Below, piece by piece: positions 39,335 to 46,253 of a stretch of DNA of 64,000 bases (position 1 is the first letter of the stretch; every line of letters starts with the position of its first letter). Where the stretch lies: positions 1,240,001 through 1,304,000 of the forward strand of contig NZ_AP014924.1 of the NCBI RefSeq assembly GCF_001544015.1, written 5' to 3'. The notes under the pieces were generated by a model. That model searched no databases, was not told the DNA's origin, and saw only the letters and a list, made by a program, of their open reading frames with translations. Both the position numbers and the translations under genes were made by a program. The DNA is from Limnochorda pilosa (GTDB lineage Bacteria > Bacillota > Limnochordia > Limnochordales > Limnochordaceae).

Positions 39335-39402
39335 GTGGGACCGGAGACCTGGAGAAGTCCCACCTGAACCTGGGGTATGCCCTGGGGTCAGGTGGGACCT
39401 TT
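39335..39402 (+). promoter_or_regulatory. GlpP-type leader of glpD: competing antiterminator and terminator hairpins
   Basis: GTGGGAC (39335-39341) can pair with GTCCCAC (39357-39363), enclosing the loop CGGAGACCTGGAGAA. The same GTCCCAC is also the left arm of an 11-bp stem, GTCCCACCTGA (39357-39367) with TCAGGTGGGAC (39388-39398), followed by CTTTCCTTT. The two structures exclude each other. The second resembles an intrinsic terminator. GlpP, encoded downstream, is known in Bacillus to antiterminate glpD. Confidence 0.75.
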
Positions 39403-39421: not shown

Positions 39422-41062
39422 ATGGATCGAGACCTGGACCGGATGAGCGCGACGTCCTTCGACCTCCTGGTGATCGGAGGGGGCATCAACGGTACGGGTG
39501 TGGCCCGGGACGCCGCGCTCCGGGGGCTCCGGGTGGCACTGGTGGAGAAGAACGACTGGGGCTGGGGCACCAGCGCCCGCAGCACCCGGCTGATCCACGG
39601 GGGTCTGCGCTACCTGGAGCAGTACGACTTCGCGCTGGTGCACGAGGGCCTGAAGGAACGCGAGCTCCTACTCAGGAACGCCCCCCACCTGGTGAAACCT
39701 CTGCCGTTCCTCACCCCTGTCTACCACGGCGATCGCCACTCCTGGCTGATGGTGAAACTGGGGATGATCCTCTACGACCTCCTTTCTTGGCGAAAGAGCC
39801 TGCCGACCCACCGGTCCTTCGGCCCCGAGGAGACCCTTCGCCTGGAGCCCACCCTCAAGCCCGACGGGCTTCGGGGCGGAATGCTCTACTACGACGGGCA
39901 GGTGGACTTTCCCGAGCGACTCTGCATGGCCAACGTCGTCGATGCGGTGGAGCACGGCGCCCACGCCGCCAACCACGCCCGGGTGACGGGCTTCCTCCGG
40001 GAGGAGGGGCGGATCGTCGGGGCGACGGTGGAGGACGGGCTCACCGGCCGCACCTACTCGATCCGGGCGCGGGTGGTGGTCAACGCTGCGGGACCCTGGG
40101 CCGACGCCGTCGCCGGGCTGGCGGACTCTGGGTATCAGCCCAGGCTCCGGCGGACCGAGGGGATCCACCTGGTGGTTCCCGCCTTCACCCGGCATGCGGT
40201 GGTGATGCTGGCTCAGCGGGACGGCCGGGTCTTCTTCGCGGTGCCGTGGCAGAGACACGAACTCGTGGGCACGACCGACACCGACTTCGACGGGGACCTC
40301 GACCGGCTCTCGGCGTCGGACAGCGACGTGCGCTACCTGGTGGAGGAGACCCGACGCCGCTTCCCCACCGCCCGCCTGGACGAGATCGCCTACACCACCT
40401 CCGGCGTCCGGGCTCTGGTCCGGCAACCCGGGGCGAGGGACCCCTCGGCGACCTCCCGCAAGCACCTGGTGCACCGGCACCGCACTCCCGGCAGCGAGAA
40501 CCTCATCTCGATCCTGGGCGGCAAGCTGACCGCCTACCGGTGCCTGGCCGAAGAGGTGGTGGACCGGGTCTGCGACGTGCTGGGCGAGCGGCGCCCTGGC
40601 CGCACCGACACCACGCCGCTTCCGGGAGGCGAGGAGAGGGACGTCGCCGGTCTCGCCCATCGCCTGGCGGAACGGGTGGCTGATCGCGGCGTGGCCGCCG
40701 AGGCAGTGACCCACCTGGTCCGGCTCTACGGGACTCGGGCCGAGGGCCTTCTCGAGGAGGGGCTGCGACAGCCGGAGCTCCTGCAGCCCATGGTCCCCGG
40801 TGGCAAGGATCTGTGGGTGCAGGTCCTCCAATCGGTGGAGCACGAGATGGCTCGAAGCGTGGACGACGTCCTGCTCCGCAGGCTCGCGCTGGGGCTCGAA
40901 CCCGGCAACGGCTGGGAGGCAGCTCCCGAGATCGCCCGCCGGATGGGCGACCTCCTCGGTTGGGACGAGGCCAGGATTCGGTCCGAGGTGGATGCCTACC
41001 GGCAGACACTGGGGTTGATGCGCGCGCGCGACCTGGGGGTGCCGCACGCCGCCATGGGCTAG
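39422..41062 (+). CDS. glpD: Aerobic glycerol-3-phosphate dehydrogenase
   Basis: GlpD oxidises glycerol 3-phosphate to dihydroxyacetone phosphate and passes electrons to quinone. The 546-residue flavoprotein has the FAD-binding GGGINGTGVARDAA, WGWGTSARSTRLIHGG, GLRYLEQYDFALVHEG and NAAGPWAD motifs, and a typical C-terminal helical domain. The ATG at 39422 follows GGGAGGGAAG. Its leader contains a terminator with a competing hairpin, matching known GlpP control. glpP follows 94 nt downstream. Confidence 0.95.
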   Translation: MDRDLDRMSATSFDLLVIGGGINGTGVARDAALRGLRVALVEKNDWGWGTSARSTRLIHGGLRYLEQYDFALVHEGLKERELLLRNAPHLVKPLPFLTPVYHGDRHSWLMVKLGMILYDLLSWRKSLPTHRSFGPEETLRLEPTLKPDGLRGGMLYYDGQVDFPERLCMANVVDAVEHGAHAANHARVTGFLREEGRIVGATVEDGLTGRTYSIRARVVVNAAGPWADAVAGLADSGYQPRLRRTEGIHLVVPAFTRHAVVMLAQRDGRVFFAVPWQRHELVGTTDTDFDGDLDRLSASDSDVRYLVEETRRRFPTARLDEIAYTTSGVRALVRQPGARDPSATSRKHLVHRHRTPGSENLISILGGKLTAYRCLAEEVVDRVCDVLGERRPGRTDTTPLPGGEERDVAGLAHRLAERVADRGVAAEAVTHLVRLYGTRAEGLLEEGLRQPELLQPMVPGGKDLWVQVLQSVEHEMARSVDDVLLRRLALGLEPGNGWEAAPEIARRMGDLLGWDEARIRSEVDAYRQTLGLMRARDLGVPHAAMG

Positions 41063-41156: not shown

Positions 41157-41765
41157 GTGCAAGCAGCGGCCAGGCAAGCCAGCTTTGCGGCCCGGCTTCA
41201 GGAACGCCGCGTCATCGCGGGGGTCAAGGAGCCGGCTCAGATGGCTCGAGCCCTGGCGGCAGGGGTCCGGGTGATCTTCTACCTCACCGGGACCATCTAC
41301 GACGTGGCGAAGGCCGTGCGGCGGAAGGAGGCCGAGGAACCCGACGCCCTTCTCTTCTGCCACGTGGACCTCATCCAGGGCCTGGGCAAGGACGAGGTGG
41401 GAGTGCGCTTCCTTGCCCAGGACTTGAAGGTGGACGGCATCCTCACGACCCGCCGACATCTGGTGCAGGCAGCTCGGGACGTCGGCCTGCTCGCCATCCA
41501 GAGAGTCTTCATGCTGGACTCGGAAGGGCTCCGCACCGCCCTCGGTGTCCTCAAGGGGGGCCGCCCTGATGCGATCGAGATCCTGCCCGCCCTGGTGGTG
41601 CCGCACATCGCCCACCGGCTTCCCTGGGAGGCGTTGCCTCCGGCCATCGCGGGCGGGCTGGTGGAGACCCGGTCGGAGCTGGAGCAGATCCTGGCGACGC
41701 CCGTGAAGGCCGTCTCCACCAGCAGGGAGGAGCTGTGGGCAGGAGCGCGCCGCACGAACAAGTAG
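41157..41765 (+). CDS. glpP: Glycerol-3-phosphate-responsive antiterminator
   Basis: The 202-residue TIM-barrel-like protein matches GlpP: RVIAGVKEPAQMARALAAGVRVIFYLTG, LLFCHVDLIQGLGKDEVGVRFLA, DGILTTRRHLVQAARDVGLLAIQRVFMLDSE and EILPALVVPHIA. GlpP binds glycerol 3-phosphate and lets RNA polymerase pass leader terminators of glp genes. It starts with GTG at 41157 after a GAGGGG tract. Two leaders with the predicted target architecture flank it, before glpD (39335) and before the hydrolase gene (41880). Confidence 0.92.
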   Translation: MQAAARQASFAARLQERRVIAGVKEPAQMARALAAGVRVIFYLTGTIYDVAKAVRRKEAEEPDALLFCHVDLIQGLGKDEVGVRFLAQDLKVDGILTTRRHLVQAARDVGLLAIQRVFMLDSEGLRTALGVLKGGRPDAIEILPALVVPHIAHRLPWEALPPAIAGGLVETRSELEQILATPVKAVSTSREELWAGARRTNK

Positions 41766-41879: not shown

Positions 41880-41939
41880 GTGGGCGGAGACACCGGAGAA
41901 GACCCACGGTTGACGTCGGGGACGTCAAAACCGTGGGTC
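41880..41939 (+). promoter_or_regulatory. GlpP-type leader of the membrane hydrolase gene
   Basis: GTGGG (41880-41884) can pair with CCCAC (41903-41907) around a loop carrying CGGAGACACCGGAGAAG. The CCCAC also lies in the left arm GACCCACGGTT (41901-41911), which pairs with AACCGTGGGTC (41929-41939); an inner GACGTC/GACGTC pair extends that stem. The order, the GGAGAC…GGAGAAG loop and the mutual exclusion match the glpD leader. The gap 41766-42037 holds no gene. Confidence 0.7.
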
Positions 41940-42037
41940 GTTCGCGTTCCGGCCCCTGGTGCCCGCGAGCCGGGTGATCGGCCTCTGGTCTGGCACGCAG
42001 CGGAGGGCCAGCATCTCTGAGACAGGAGGCATCATCC

Positions 42038-43858
42038 TTGAAGCGGAAATGGCTCTTGATCCTATCCCTCGTCCTCGTCGTGGCGGGCGGCTACCTCGCC
42101 AGCGCCGTCCAATCCGACTATGGGCACGTCCGGGTCAGCGATCTTCGCATCGCCGGGCAAGACGGCAAGATCTTGAGCGCTCTGCTCTACGTGCCGGAGA
42201 ACGCCACCGACAAGACCCCAGCTCCTGCCGTGCTTACCATGCACGGATACATCAACACCCGGGAGACGCACAGCGGCTTCAACATCGAGTTCGCCCGGCG
42301 CGGCTATGTCGTGCTGGCGCTGGACATGGCGGGGCACGGCTACTCCGACCCGAGGGCATTCGTCAACTACGACCTCACTCGGGGCGCGCAAGATGGCCTG
42401 TACTACCTGGCCAGCCTCCCCTTCGTGGACAGGACGAACATAGCCACTCACGGCCACTCCATGGGCGGCTGGTCCACGTTGCGGGCGGCGAACGACAACC
42501 CGGATCTGGTGAAGACCGTGATCCTTCAGGGTTCCTCCTCGGAGACCTATCTTTCCGGTGAGGTGACGGCAGAGAGCCCCTTCAACTTCGCTGTCAACTT
42601 CTCCAGGTACGATGAGTTCTGGGACCTGATGTGGAACGACAAGGACGCGGCAGGGAAGCCGATTGCTGTCGACGCGACTGGCGCACCGCTGGTGAAGAAG
42701 CCGTCCGACATCGTCAAGGCCCCCAAACTCAAGAAGATCTTCGGTGTGACCGAGGATGTCGTCCCCTTCAGCATGTACGGCGATCCGGCCAACGAGACGG
42801 CTCGCATGCTGTACATCTCCGATACCACCCACCCGGGTGACCATCTTTCGAAAGAGGCCATCGGGTACAGCATCTCGTTTCTGAATGAGACCATCCCGGC
42901 TCCGAAACCCTTGCCTGTCTCCAACCAGATCTGGCACCTGAAGGAGTTCGGGACCCTGGTCACCCTGGTCGGCATCTTCCTCTTCCTCTTCGCGATCGGT
43001 GAGAGGCTCCTGGACTCGGCGTACTTCCAGAGTCTCAGGCAGCCGGCTCCAGAGCACCCGGGCAGCAGCCGGGCAGCCTGGTGGGTCGGGGCGCTGATCG
43101 CCACGGCCATCCCCGCCGCGACCCTGTTCAAGTTCAAGGGCTGGGGCGGAGTGTGGGTCCCCGCCAGCGCGACCTTCCCGCAGGCCATCACCTCGCAGTT
43201 GATGATCTGGGCGGTACTCAACGGCCTGATTGCCCTGGCGCTCTTCATCGGCTGGCACTACCTCGCGGGCGCGAAGCAGGGCGGTGGTGCTCTGCAATAC
43301 GGCCTCTCCACCGACCGCAGTCGCTTCGCCCTGGACTGGGGCCACGTTGGCAAGGCTCTGCTGCTCGCCGTCAGTGTGGTCGGCATGGCCCAGGTCCTGG
43401 TCCATTTCGTGGAGTGGGCGTTCCTGGTCGACCCTCGTTTCTGGGTCGTCGCCCTCAAGCCGCTGACCGCGGCCCGCTTCGGTACGTACCTGACCTACCT
43501 GATCCCGTTCTTCCTCTTCTTCCTGGCGTCCTCGCTGATCATGCACGGACAGCTGCGGCTGAAGGGGAAGAGCCTTGGTGTCGAGATGGCGGCCAACGCC
43601 CTCGTGGGTGCCCTGGGCATCACCGTGCTGGTGGCGCTCCAGGTCGGCCACCTGTTCGCCACCGAGACCCTGATGTTCCCCCGCGAGTCCCTGTGGGGCA
43701 TCATCGCCTATCAGTTCATCCCGCTGACGGCCCTGGCGGGCGCTCTCTCCACCTTCTTCTTCCGGAAGACCGGAAGCGTCTACGCGGGTGCGATGGTGAA
43801 CGCGCTCTTCATCACCTGGTACATCGTCGCTGGCCAGGCGATTCACTTCGCCGGATGA
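42038..43858 (+). CDS. Alpha/beta hydrolase with C-terminal polytopic membrane domain
   Basis: The 606-residue protein starts with an uncleaved-looking hydrophobic helix (WLLILSLVLVVAGGYLASA), then an alpha/beta hydrolase domain to about residue 290 with oxyanion-type LTMHGYINTRET, LDMAGHGYSD and the nucleophile elbow ATHGHSMGGWS. The C-terminal 300 residues contain about eight membrane helices of unknown function. TTG at 42038 lies 8 nt after AGGAGG. It sits between glpP and glpK with a GlpP-like leader, so it may release glycerol or a glycerol ester product; the substrate is inference. The hydrolase faces out of the inner membrane if the first helix is an anchor. Confidence 0.8.
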   Translation: MKRKWLLILSLVLVVAGGYLASAVQSDYGHVRVSDLRIAGQDGKILSALLYVPENATDKTPAPAVLTMHGYINTRETHSGFNIEFARRGYVVLALDMAGHGYSDPRAFVNYDLTRGAQDGLYYLASLPFVDRTNIATHGHSMGGWSTLRAANDNPDLVKTVILQGSSSETYLSGEVTAESPFNFAVNFSRYDEFWDLMWNDKDAAGKPIAVDATGAPLVKKPSDIVKAPKLKKIFGVTEDVVPFSMYGDPANETARMLYISDTTHPGDHLSKEAIGYSISFLNETIPAPKPLPVSNQIWHLKEFGTLVTLVGIFLFLFAIGERLLDSAYFQSLRQPAPEHPGSSRAAWWVGALIATAIPAATLFKFKGWGGVWVPASATFPQAITSQLMIWAVLNGLIALALFIGWHYLAGAKQGGGALQYGLSTDRSRFALDWGHVGKALLLAVSVVGMAQVLVHFVEWAFLVDPRFWVVALKPLTAARFGTYLTYLIPFFLFFLASSLIMHGQLRLKGKSLGVEMAANALVGALGITVLVALQVGHLFATETLMFPRESLWGIIAYQFIPLTALAGALSTFFFRKTGSVYAGAMVNALFITWYIVAGQAIHFAG

Positions 43859-43870
43859 GCATCTGGTCCA

Positions 43871-43908
43871 GGCCAGGCGGGCCCGCCCCCGAGCGGGTCC
43901 GCCCGGCC
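43871..43908 (+). terminator. Strong GC hairpin after the hydrolase gene
   Basis: Arms 43871-43886 and 43893-43908 form a 16-position stem with one mismatch, one G-U pair and a 6-nt loop (CCCCGA), 12 nt after the hydrolase stop. No T-run follows, so termination is probable but not certain. Confidence 0.6.
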
Positions 43909-44025
43909 TAGGGCGACGCCAGCGGGGAGGAAGGGAATGACGCGCGGTGAAGGAAGTCCCTCGTCGGATGCTTCGGGCCTTCGCTGTCGTCACCCTGCTG
44001 GCATTCGGTCTGGAGGCTGAGCGTC

Positions 44026-45540
44026 TTGGCTCGCTACGTGGGCGCCATCGACCAGGGCACCACCAGCACCCGGTTCATGGTCTTCGACCGCGAGGGACGG
44101 GTGGTGGCCGCGGCCCAGAAGGAGCACCGTCAGATCTATCCTGAGCCCGGATGGGTGGAGCACGACCCCCTGGAGATCTGGGAGCGCACCCAGGAGGTGA
44201 TCCGAGAGGGCCTCGGCCGCGCGGGCCTGACCGGGGAGGACCTCGCCGCCCTCGGCCTCACCAACCAGCGGGAGACGATCATCGTCTGGGACCGGCGGAC
44301 CGGCCGGCCGTACACCAACGCGCTGGTCTGGCAGGACACCCGCAGCAATGCCATCTGCCAGGAGCTGACCGCCGAGGGAGGCCCGGACCGCTTCCGTGAC
44401 CGCACGGGGCTGCCGATCTCCACGTACTTCTCGGGGCCGAAGCTCCGGTGGACCCTGGAGCAGGTGCCTGGGGTACGGCAGGCGGCCGAGCGGGGCGAGG
44501 CGCTCTTCGGCACCGTAGACACCTGGCTCCTCTGGTGGCTGAGCGGGGGACCCGAAGGCGGCGTCCACGTCACCGACGTGACCAACGCCAGCCGGACGCT
44601 CCTGATGAACCACGCCACCCTGGACTGGGACCCGGAAATCCTCGCGATCCTGGGCATCCCGCGCGCGATGCTGCCCGCTATCCGCCCCTCGAGCGATCCG
44701 GACCTCTACGGCACCACCCGACCCGACGGGCCGTTGGCAGCCGCAGTCCCTCTGGCCGGCGCCCTGGGCGACCAGCAGGCGGCCCTGGTGGGCCAGGCGG
44801 CCTTCGCCCCGGGTGACGTGAAGAACACCTACGGCACGGGCTGCTTCGTGGTGATGAACACGGGCGAGCGCAGGGTCCTCTCCCGACACGGACTCCTCAC
44901 CAGCGTCGCCTACCGGATGGCCGACGAACCGGCCGTCTTCTGCCTGGAGGGCTCCATAGCCATTACGGGCGCGCTGGTCCAGTGGCTGCGGGACAACCTT
45001 GGGATCATCCAGAGCTCCGGCGAGGTGGAGAGGCTGGCTCGGAGCGTGGAGGACTCGGGCGGGATCTACTTCGTCCCGGCCTTCTCCGGGCTCTTCGCGC
45101 CCCACTGGGACAGCCGCGCCCGGGGATTGCTCATCGGTCTCACCCGTTACGTGAACCGGGGCCACCTGGCTCGTGCCGTGCTGGAGGCGACCGCCTACCA
45201 GACGGAAGAGGTCCTCCGGGCCATGCGGCAGGATAGCGGTGCGTCGCTGGCTGAGCTGCGGGTCGACGGGGGGATGGTGGCCAACGACTTGCTGATGCAG
45301 TTTCAGGCGGACCTGTCGGGCATTCCCGTCATCCGTCCCCAGGTTGCGGAGACCACGGCCCTGGGAGCCGCGTACGCAGCCGGCCTGGCCGTCGGGCTCT
45401 GGGACGGGCGGGAGACGCTGCAGCGTCTGTGGCGGGAGGACCGGCGCTGGCAGCCCACCTGGGGAGAGGCTCATCGCGAAGAGGCGCTGCGCGGCTGGCT
45501 GCGGGCGGTGGAGCGGGCCATGGGTTGGCTCGAGGCGTAA
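44026..45540 (+). CDS. glpK: Glycerol kinase
   Basis: GlpK phosphorylates glycerol to glycerol 3-phosphate, the ligand of GlpP and substrate of GlpD, PgsA and PlsY. The 504-residue FGGY kinase has [40 protein letters not shown], the phosphate-binding [13 protein letters not shown] and [11 protein letters not shown], and the adenosine motif [19 protein letters not shown]. The TTG at 44026 lies 9 nt after TGGAGG. The stretch before it shows no GlpP-type hairpin, unlike glpD and the hydrolase. No glpF facilitator is in the window. Confidence 0.95.
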
Positions 45541-45641: not shown

Positions 45642-46253
45642 ATGGCTTGGACGACAGGCCTGCTTTGGGCTGGCCTCCTGGTGGGCAGCTACCTGGTCGG
45701 ATCCATCCCGTTCGCCCTCATCATGGGCAAGGTGCTGCGGGGGGTGGACGTCCGGCACGGCGGCAGCGGCAACGTGGGGAGCACCAACCTCCTGCGCCTC
45801 GCCGGCTGGCTGCCCGCGGCCCTTGCCTTCTCCCTGGATCTCCTGAAGGGCACCCTGCCCGCTCTGGCCGGAGCGTGGCTCGCCGGGCCCGTCGGCGGCC
45901 TGATGGCGGGCCTGGCCGCGGTGGCCGGTCACAACTGGTCCGTCTACCTGCGGGGCCGGGGCGGCAAGGGTGTGGCCACCAGCCTGGGCGTGCTCCTGGC
46001 CGTGGCGCCCGTGGCGGCCCTAGTGGCCGTGGCCCTCTTCCTCTTGGTGGTCGTCCTCACCCGCTACGTCTCGTTGGGCTCCATCACGGCCTCGCTCTCC
46101 GTCCCCGTGGCCCTCTGGCTCCTGGGCGCGGGGTGGTACGAGGTCGGGTTGGGCGGGCTGCTCACCGCCCTCCTGGTGCTGCGGCACCGGCCGAACATCG
46201 CCCGCCTCCTGGCCGGGACCGAGAACCGCTTCAGGTCGCCCCGACCGTCCTGA
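45642..46253 (+). CDS. plsY: Glycerol-3-phosphate acyltransferase PlsY
   Basis: PlsY transfers an acyl group from acyl phosphate to glycerol 3-phosphate, the first step of phospholipid synthesis in Bacillota. The 203-residue inner-membrane enzyme carries all three motifs: GSIPFALIMGKVLRGVDVR with HGGSGNVGSTN, GHNWSVYLRGRGGKGVATSLG, and HRPNIARLLAGTENR near the C terminus. The ATG at 45642 lies downstream of a purine-rich AGAGGGGACG. It follows glpK by about 100 nt, grouping glycerol 3-phosphate supply with its main anabolic use. Confidence 0.95.
   Translation: MAWTTGLLWAGLLVGSYLVGSIPFALIMGKVLRGVDVRHGGSGNVGSTNLLRLAGWLPAALAFSLDLLKGTLPALAGAWLAGPVGGLMAGLAAVAGHNWSVYLRGRGGKGVATSLGVLLAVAPVAALVAVALFLLVVVLTRYVSLGSITASLSVPVALWLLGAGWYEVGLGGLLTALLVLRHRPNIARLLAGTENRFRSPRPS

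Follow-up and report, generated by a model that had tools for sequence, protein, structure and literature searches.

In Bacillus subtilis the genes for glycerol use are controlled by GlpP, which with glycerol-3-phosphate opens a conditional terminator in the leader of its target transcripts, and the locus described here has the same regulator and the same type of leader. One of these targets, GlpQ, is extracellular and feeds the glycerol pathway, as we propose below for a hydrolase. As listed in PMC9604022, the B. subtilis regulon comprises five genes (glpF, glpK, glpD, glpT and glpQ) and that list contains no alpha/beta hydrolase, whereas the regulon found here appears to include a hydrolase family. 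We found no paper linking GlpP to an alpha/beta hydrolase in the open-licence text of PubMed Central.

The two halves of this hydrolase resemble different groups of described proteins. TTL lipase from Thermoanaerobacter thermohydrosulfuricus, PET46, several feruloyl esterases and Rv0183 have the hydrolase fold in common with it, but their chains are single-domain, whereas the protein studied here adds a fused nine-helix membrane part. Its C-terminal fold may be similar to that of SpdC from Staphylococcus aureus and of other CPBP-fold proteins (LnsB, APH-1). In the passages of PMC7387801 that deal with them, SpdC and APH-1 are discussed as CPBP-related, SpdC is described as having no catalytic residues, and LnsB, which works with LnsA in lipoprotein N-acylation, is grouped with the other two as non-catalytic. 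According to the title of a structure entry, SpdC was seen in complex with the hydrolase SagB; here, in contrast, the hydrolase is fused in cis.

Gene organization and domain architecture

The window, that is, the whole stretch of 64,000 nucleotides that was analysed, corresponds to positions 1240001-1304000 of the single-contig genome of Limnochorda pilosa (3,817,036 bases; G000). Five genes lie in the same direction in the order glpD-glpP-hydrolase-glpK-plsY (Table 1). The start of glpD is probably at 39422, because the upstream ATG of the listed reading frame (39377) falls inside the leader hairpin. In the gap between the hydrolase gene and glpK, a hairpin that is rich in G+C and highly stable (43866-43917, z -2.98), but has no T-tract, is a possible processing or attenuation site.

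Table 1. Features of the glp region in the window (positions of the window; residues refer to the hydrolase protein).
Feature	Position	Strand	Basis or remarks
glpD leader, candidate antiterminator GTGGGAC-[two GGAGA boxes]-GTCCCAC (7 bp) with overlapping hairpin	39336..39398	+	structural scan
glpD, aerobic glycerol-3-phosphate dehydrogenase	39422..41062	+	Pfam DAO and DAO_C; NCBIfam NF008899 above cut-off
glpP, glycerol-3-phosphate responsive antiterminator	41157..41765	+	PF04309, E 7.9e-50
Hydrolase leader, candidate antiterminator GTGGG-[CGGAGACACCGGAGAAGA]-CCCAC	41880..41907	+	sequence; structural scan
GGAGA boxes in the hydrolase antiterminator loop	41886-41890, 41895-41899	+	sequence
Hydrolase leader, terminator-like hairpin	41901..41939	+	11-bp outer stem and inner stem; 5' arm overlaps 3' arm of antiterminator
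Ribosome-binding site AGGAGG	42024..42029	+	sequence; 8 bases 5' of the TTG start
Membrane-fused alpha/beta hydrolase ORF	42038..43858	+	606 aa, TTG start
N-terminal membrane helix, residues 3-25	42044..42112	+	AlphaFold2 model, hydropathy
Alpha/beta-hydrolase domain, residues 31-289	42128..42904	+	Pfam, alignment, fold matches
Catalytic Ser141	42458-42460	+	alignment of relatives
Catalytic Asp192	42611-42613	+	alignment of relatives
Catalytic His265	42830-42832	+	alignment of relatives
C-terminal eight-helix membrane domain, residues 299-599	42932..43834	+	AlphaFold2 model; closest solved fold SpdC
glpK, glycerol kinase	44026..45540	+	TIGR01311 above cut-off
plsY, glycerol-3-phosphate acyltransferase	45642..46253	+	PF02660, E 5.1e-51

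The N-terminal half of the hydrolase protein matched the Pfam families Peptidase_S15 (the top family, E 5.4e-11), Hydrolase_4 and Abhydrolase_1, all above their cut-offs. Ser141, which sits in a GHSMGG motif, and His265 are conserved in all 26 aligned relatives, and Asp192 in 24 of them. In the AlphaFold2 model of the full protein (pLDDT 90.8, pTM 0.91), the N-terminal helix is followed by the hydrolase domain and then, within residues 299-599, by the eight long helices of the C-terminal part. An earlier reading made from the sequence alone (hereafter the sequence-only reading) had described a GHSMGG hydrolase fused to about eight helices in the gap between glpP and glpK, and the ORF, the Pfam matches and the model bear this out.

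Using a second-look structure aligner, the nearest solved folds for the hydrolase domain were TTL lipase (Z 22.1), PET46 (21.9) and feruloyl esterases (around 21), and the monoglyceride lipase Rv0183 was also matched (Z 18.9), with identities to these solved folds of 16-22%. The Z values above 18 against many esterases, together with the nucleophile elbow and the Ser-Asp-His triad, identify a serine-esterase-type alpha/beta hydrolase whose fold and triad are supported by comparison. Given that PETases and feruloyl esterases are among the nearest solved folds, glycerol esters are not singled out by the fold. Hydropathy and loop charges place the hydrolase domain outside, and loop charges do the same for the DFRIW loop, which suggests that the domain faces outward. 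In two short family members (L026 and L027, from G034 and G036) the Ser and His are retained, but both the HG motif and the Asp of the triad have been lost.

The C-terminal domain, which reached a pLDDT of 88.4 when modelled alone, showed no usable match in Pfam, NCBIfam or PDB sequences, and a Foldseek search of the model against the PDB returned nothing below E 0.6, with aquaporins among the weak matches. Among the matches listed by the second-look aligner SpdC was the best (Z 10.6, rmsd 4.3, 207 residues), a score in the range below about 13 that in helical bundles can reflect a common arrangement only, followed by APH-1 (Z 5.3), with unrelated transporters next (Z 4.2 or lower). MmRce1 and aquaporins did not appear among the 50 matches listed, an absence that is uninformative. 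CAAX proteases carry catalytic Glu and His motifs. In the family alignment no Glu or His is conserved in at least 18 of the 26 C-terminal sequences, making an active CAAX-type protease role of this domain unlikely; the only invariant residues are Lys302, Arg467 and Trp469. In this absence of a conserved Glu or His, as in that of a sequence match, the domain differs from SpdC and the other CPBP proteins.

The leader of the hydrolase gene

A GlpP-like leader had also been proposed for the hydrolase gene, and the two GGAGA boxes and the overlapping hairpin upstream of it uphold that proposal. A 74-nt piece of this leader folds better than its shuffles (z -3.39). The glpD leader, in which the antiterminator overlaps a hairpin ending at 39398 (fold z -3.78), was used as an internal comparison. 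Behind the hydrolase-leader hairpin only 4 of 9 bases are T, which makes for a poor U-tract, and the hairpin was not among the calls of a generic terminator scan; an Rfam search of the window at the gathering threshold gave nothing. A search for two GGAGA boxes alone was rejected as not specific, given that the genome contains 85 distinct GGAGA-N3-5-GGAGA sites versus 64 in the reversed control. Three of these 85 sites pass a lenient structural filter, those of glpD (39343) and the hydrolase (41886) strongly and one at L192 weakly.

In other genomes, 26 of the 27 regions leading from glpP to glpF, glpK or glpD at the best glpP loci display AAGTTAATA followed by two GGAG(A) boxes, after which comes a terminator 5' arm. 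From the alignment of 26 such glpF, glpK and glpD leaders (A1), with hydrolase leaders excluded, we built a sequence-only model, R1. The flanks of the boxes in the training leaders pair with a mean stem of 4.65, versus 3.67 when the 3' flanks are shuffled among leaders (0 of 5000 shuffles), and after removal of near-duplicates with 4.53 versus 3.81 (7 of 5000).

When applied to 37 loci (578 kb), R1 produced 17 matches at E<0.01, 14 of them just 5' of a hydrolase gene and three 5' of glpD. The run on the first 27 loci (461 kb), read up to E 10, had nine matches, seven just 5' of hydrolases (E 2.8e-4 or better), the other two being the glpK leader of G109 (E 0.086) and a match at L066:19826 with no fitting gene (E 0.034); the 10 further loci, read up to E 1, contributed 11 (seven hydrolase, four glpD). 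Across 14 whole genomes there were 14 matches at E<0.012, before eight hydrolase, three glpD, two glpK and one glpF gene, and 18 up to E 0.05; those at E 0.017-0.036 comprise a glpF leader in G209 and three matches without a fitting gene. R1 was trained on A+T-rich leaders, and it detected neither the G+C-rich hydrolase leaders of the window and of its closest relative, G006, nor the glpD leader of the window; elsewhere in G000 it likewise gave no match.

Because R1 misses them, the leaders of the window and G006 rest on a structural scan. To count as a match, the two boxes must be enclosed by a stem of 3 bp or more, and a hairpin of 8 bp or more must overlap this element and be followed by 9 bases that include four or more T. 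When 36 loci were scanned (both strands together, 1.12 million bases), 19 matches emerged, namely 11 before hydrolase genes, seven before glpD or glpK and one elsewhere; the criteria were set after some leaders were known, which makes the scan less independent than R1. The 11 hydrolase matches, including those of the window and G006, lie within 420 bases upstream of the gene.

Combining both methods, a leader is found at 19 of the 36 family loci and in three deep clades; two more loci (L078 and L220) are leader-like by eye, and 15 show none by either method or by eye. Five leaderless loci belong to the three genomes that have no GlpP over the cut-off (G034, G036 and G271). Stand-alone hydrolase copies far from glp genes also bear the leader (L063, L065, L067, L073, L076 and L024). 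We infer from these patterns that the GGAGA boxes bind GlpP, in this species too. A GlpP-type leader was also seen before glpP itself in the same-genus genome G001 (L283:3206), where glpP is clustered with glpF, glpK and dhaK/dhaL-like genes (the latter named from reading their translations).

We also scanned the 400 bp upstream of the family genes for CcpA-type sites, using what we take to be the consensus. Sites were present at 18 of the 36 family loci, versus an expectation of 0.018 per 400 bp, with none upstream of the window hydrolase. Their presence at half of the family loci points to the catabolism of an external carbon source.

Distribution of the family and linkage to glpP

A scan of genome contigs recovered one relative locus, in Bacillus timonensis (46%). 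The closest full-length relative (G006, 58%) belongs to the same order as the window, and more distant ones are found within the class. Around B. timonensis, 28 of 248 genomes carry the family at E 1e-15 or better, and across that phylum 9 of 397 sampled genomes do, a patchy distribution. In a tree of 36 members, the window protein groups with those of G006, G060, G080, G105 and G109, and this clade of six, which is well supported, is separate from one of ten proteins of approximately 606-622 aa and from a larger one of 17 longer proteins.

Linkage to glp genes recurs in several arrangements: glpP-glpD-hydrolase in B. timonensis, glpP-glpK-glpD-hydrolase in G109, and glpP-leader-hydrolase-glpK-glpD in G065, G125, G162 and G189, the hydrolases of these last four falling in a deep clade other than that of the window. 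In G209, G233 and G283 a glpP copy lies directly 5' of the hydrolase gene. Of the 248 genomes in the set, 228 have GlpP (over the cut-off in 224), many of them in more than one copy, and glpP adjoins the hydrolase gene in 9 of the 28 carriers, the other 19 having no glpP in the fetched stretch. Taken together, the leader and the gene linkage in distant relatives agree with the sequence-only reading in placing the hydrolase in the GlpP regulon, a membership that comparison indicates to be well supported.

At the seven loci L213-L219 (G065, G125, G162, G189, G209, G233 and G283) the glpP copies stand directly before hydrolase paralogs. In G006 glpP lies elsewhere in the genome, away from the hydrolase gene, which is divergent from an ABC transporter (L024:8786-12356) with UgpA/UgpE-like permeases below the NCBIfam cut-offs. 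The genome neighbourhoods of eight loci with stand-alone hydrolases gave no clue to the substrate.

Proposed function of the hydrolase

The explanation that we favour, and consider fairly probable, is that the protein is a GlpP-controlled, membrane-anchored and outward-facing ester hydrolase (esterase/lipase) that supplies glycerol. In the presence of glycerol-3-phosphate, GlpP would bind the leader RNA at its two GGAGA boxes and favour the small antiterminator hairpin, and transcription would then continue into the hydrolase gene and probably into glpK. The N-terminal helix and the eight-helix C-terminal domain would anchor the hydrolase domain at the membrane's outer side, the CAAX-protease-like (CPBP-like) fold acting as a scaffold or substrate guide and as neither a protease nor a channel. 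The hydrolase would cleave acyl esters of glycerol outside the cell or at the outer leaflet, and the freed glycerol would presumably enter by diffusion or via some carrier and be captured by GlpK. Extracellular cleavage of glycerol esters is plausible, and we infer this substrate from the regulation and the fold. In a passage of PMC11456536, glycerol is given as unused for fumarate respiration by two Limnochordia isolates.

Another explanation, which we regard as rather unlikely, is that the hydrolase acts at the outer leaflet on lipids of the cell itself (diacylglycerol, lysolipids, or glycolipid and teichoic-acid anchors) and that the tie to GlpP reflects glycerol-3-phosphate as a report of lipid precursor supply. 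It would fit the likeness of the C-terminal fold to SpdC, the position of plsY 3' of glpK and the service of CPBP-like membrane proteins in envelope and lipid chemistry, for which a passage of PMC7387801 offers LnsB with LnsA as an example. However, the CcpA-type sites suggest catabolism of external carbon, and so patchy a spread across the phylum is ill-suited to a housekeeping lipid enzyme.

It is improbable, in our judgement, that the protein acts as an esterase or peptidase on substrates of another kind, such as feruloyl esters or peptides, and that its control by glycerol is incidental to the position of the gene. Feruloyl esterases and PETases are indeed among the nearest folds and Peptidase_S15 is the top Pfam family, but position does not account for the control, since the stand-alone copies far from glp genes carry the leader as well.

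The hydrolase and the glycerol facilitator

The sequence-only reading had remarked on a missing glpF, and our profile search of the complete 3.8-Mb genome agrees with it: no MIP gene (PF00230) was found, the hydrolase ORF included, while positive controls were detected. The C-terminal part of the hydrolase likewise gave no Pfam match to the MIP profile. In five genomes (G000, G065, G125, G162 and G189) the hydrolase gene occupies the place of glpF, coming first behind the glpP leader and ahead of glpK, although its product is unrelated to the GlpF glycerol facilitator in sequence and fold. All five of these genomes are devoid of MIP genes; four of them are mutually related, and the arrangement is seen in two deep clades of the hydrolase family. 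Slot replacement in some operons is therefore real.

Strict exclusivity between the hydrolase and glpF was considered and rejected, given that several carriers have both a MIP gene and the hydrolase. Among the 248 genomes, MIP genes occur in 15 of 28 carriers versus 156 of 220 non-carriers (p=0.08, uncorrected for kinship), their absence being only slightly commoner among carriers. The hydrolase is thus not a general stand-in for glpF.

One form of replacement, to which we give little credence, is that a hydrolase-plus-membrane module displaced the facilitator, the hydrolase freeing glycerol outside and the CPBP-like domain guiding product or substrate into the membrane, in such a way that the operon would work without glpF. 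Even less credible to us is a C-terminal domain that is itself the entry path for glycerol, with the protein functionally replacing GlpF, as the sequence-only reading had ventured. Such a role would agree with the five slot genomes lacking MIP and with the clade of the window, where five of the six genomes have no MIP gene and the sixth, G109, has only one with the motif NPARS, which we take to be water-channel-like; it would also agree with G001, which has glpF near glpP, with D after NPAR, and no full-length relative of the hydrolase. Against it stand the kinship of four of the slot genomes, the weak contrast between carriers and non-carriers and the fold, where the aquaporin likeness is negligible (Foldseek E 1.5 or more, TM around 0.15) and SpdC is the best match, so that a channel function of this domain is unlikely.

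Finally, that the hairpin before the hydrolase gene is merely the terminator of glpP, with no control by GlpP, is hardly tenable: it lies 136 bases past the glpP stop and R1 gives the region no score, but its two GGAGA boxes are placed relative to the hairpin as in the glpF, glpK and glpD leaders elsewhere, and the strong pattern occurs at only two sites of the genome, the other being that of glpD.

Implications for the GlpP regulon

The favoured explanation, an outward-facing ester hydrolase under GlpP control, combines familiar components in a new way: an esterase-type hydrolase and a CPBP-like membrane domain, under predicted GlpP control across distant Firmicutes. In SpdC, which appears to have the same membrane fold, the hydrolase partner is a separate protein in trans, whereas here fold and hydrolase are joined in cis. 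The extra glpP copies that travel with the hydrolase may represent specialised versions of GlpP. For the organism, the locus offers a testable case in which glpF is absent and the rest of the glycerol pathway is retained. To the five genes so far given for the B. subtilis regulon it would add an uncharacterised family of membrane hydrolases, and for this otherwise anonymous family the GlpP-type regulation provides a clue to the substrate.
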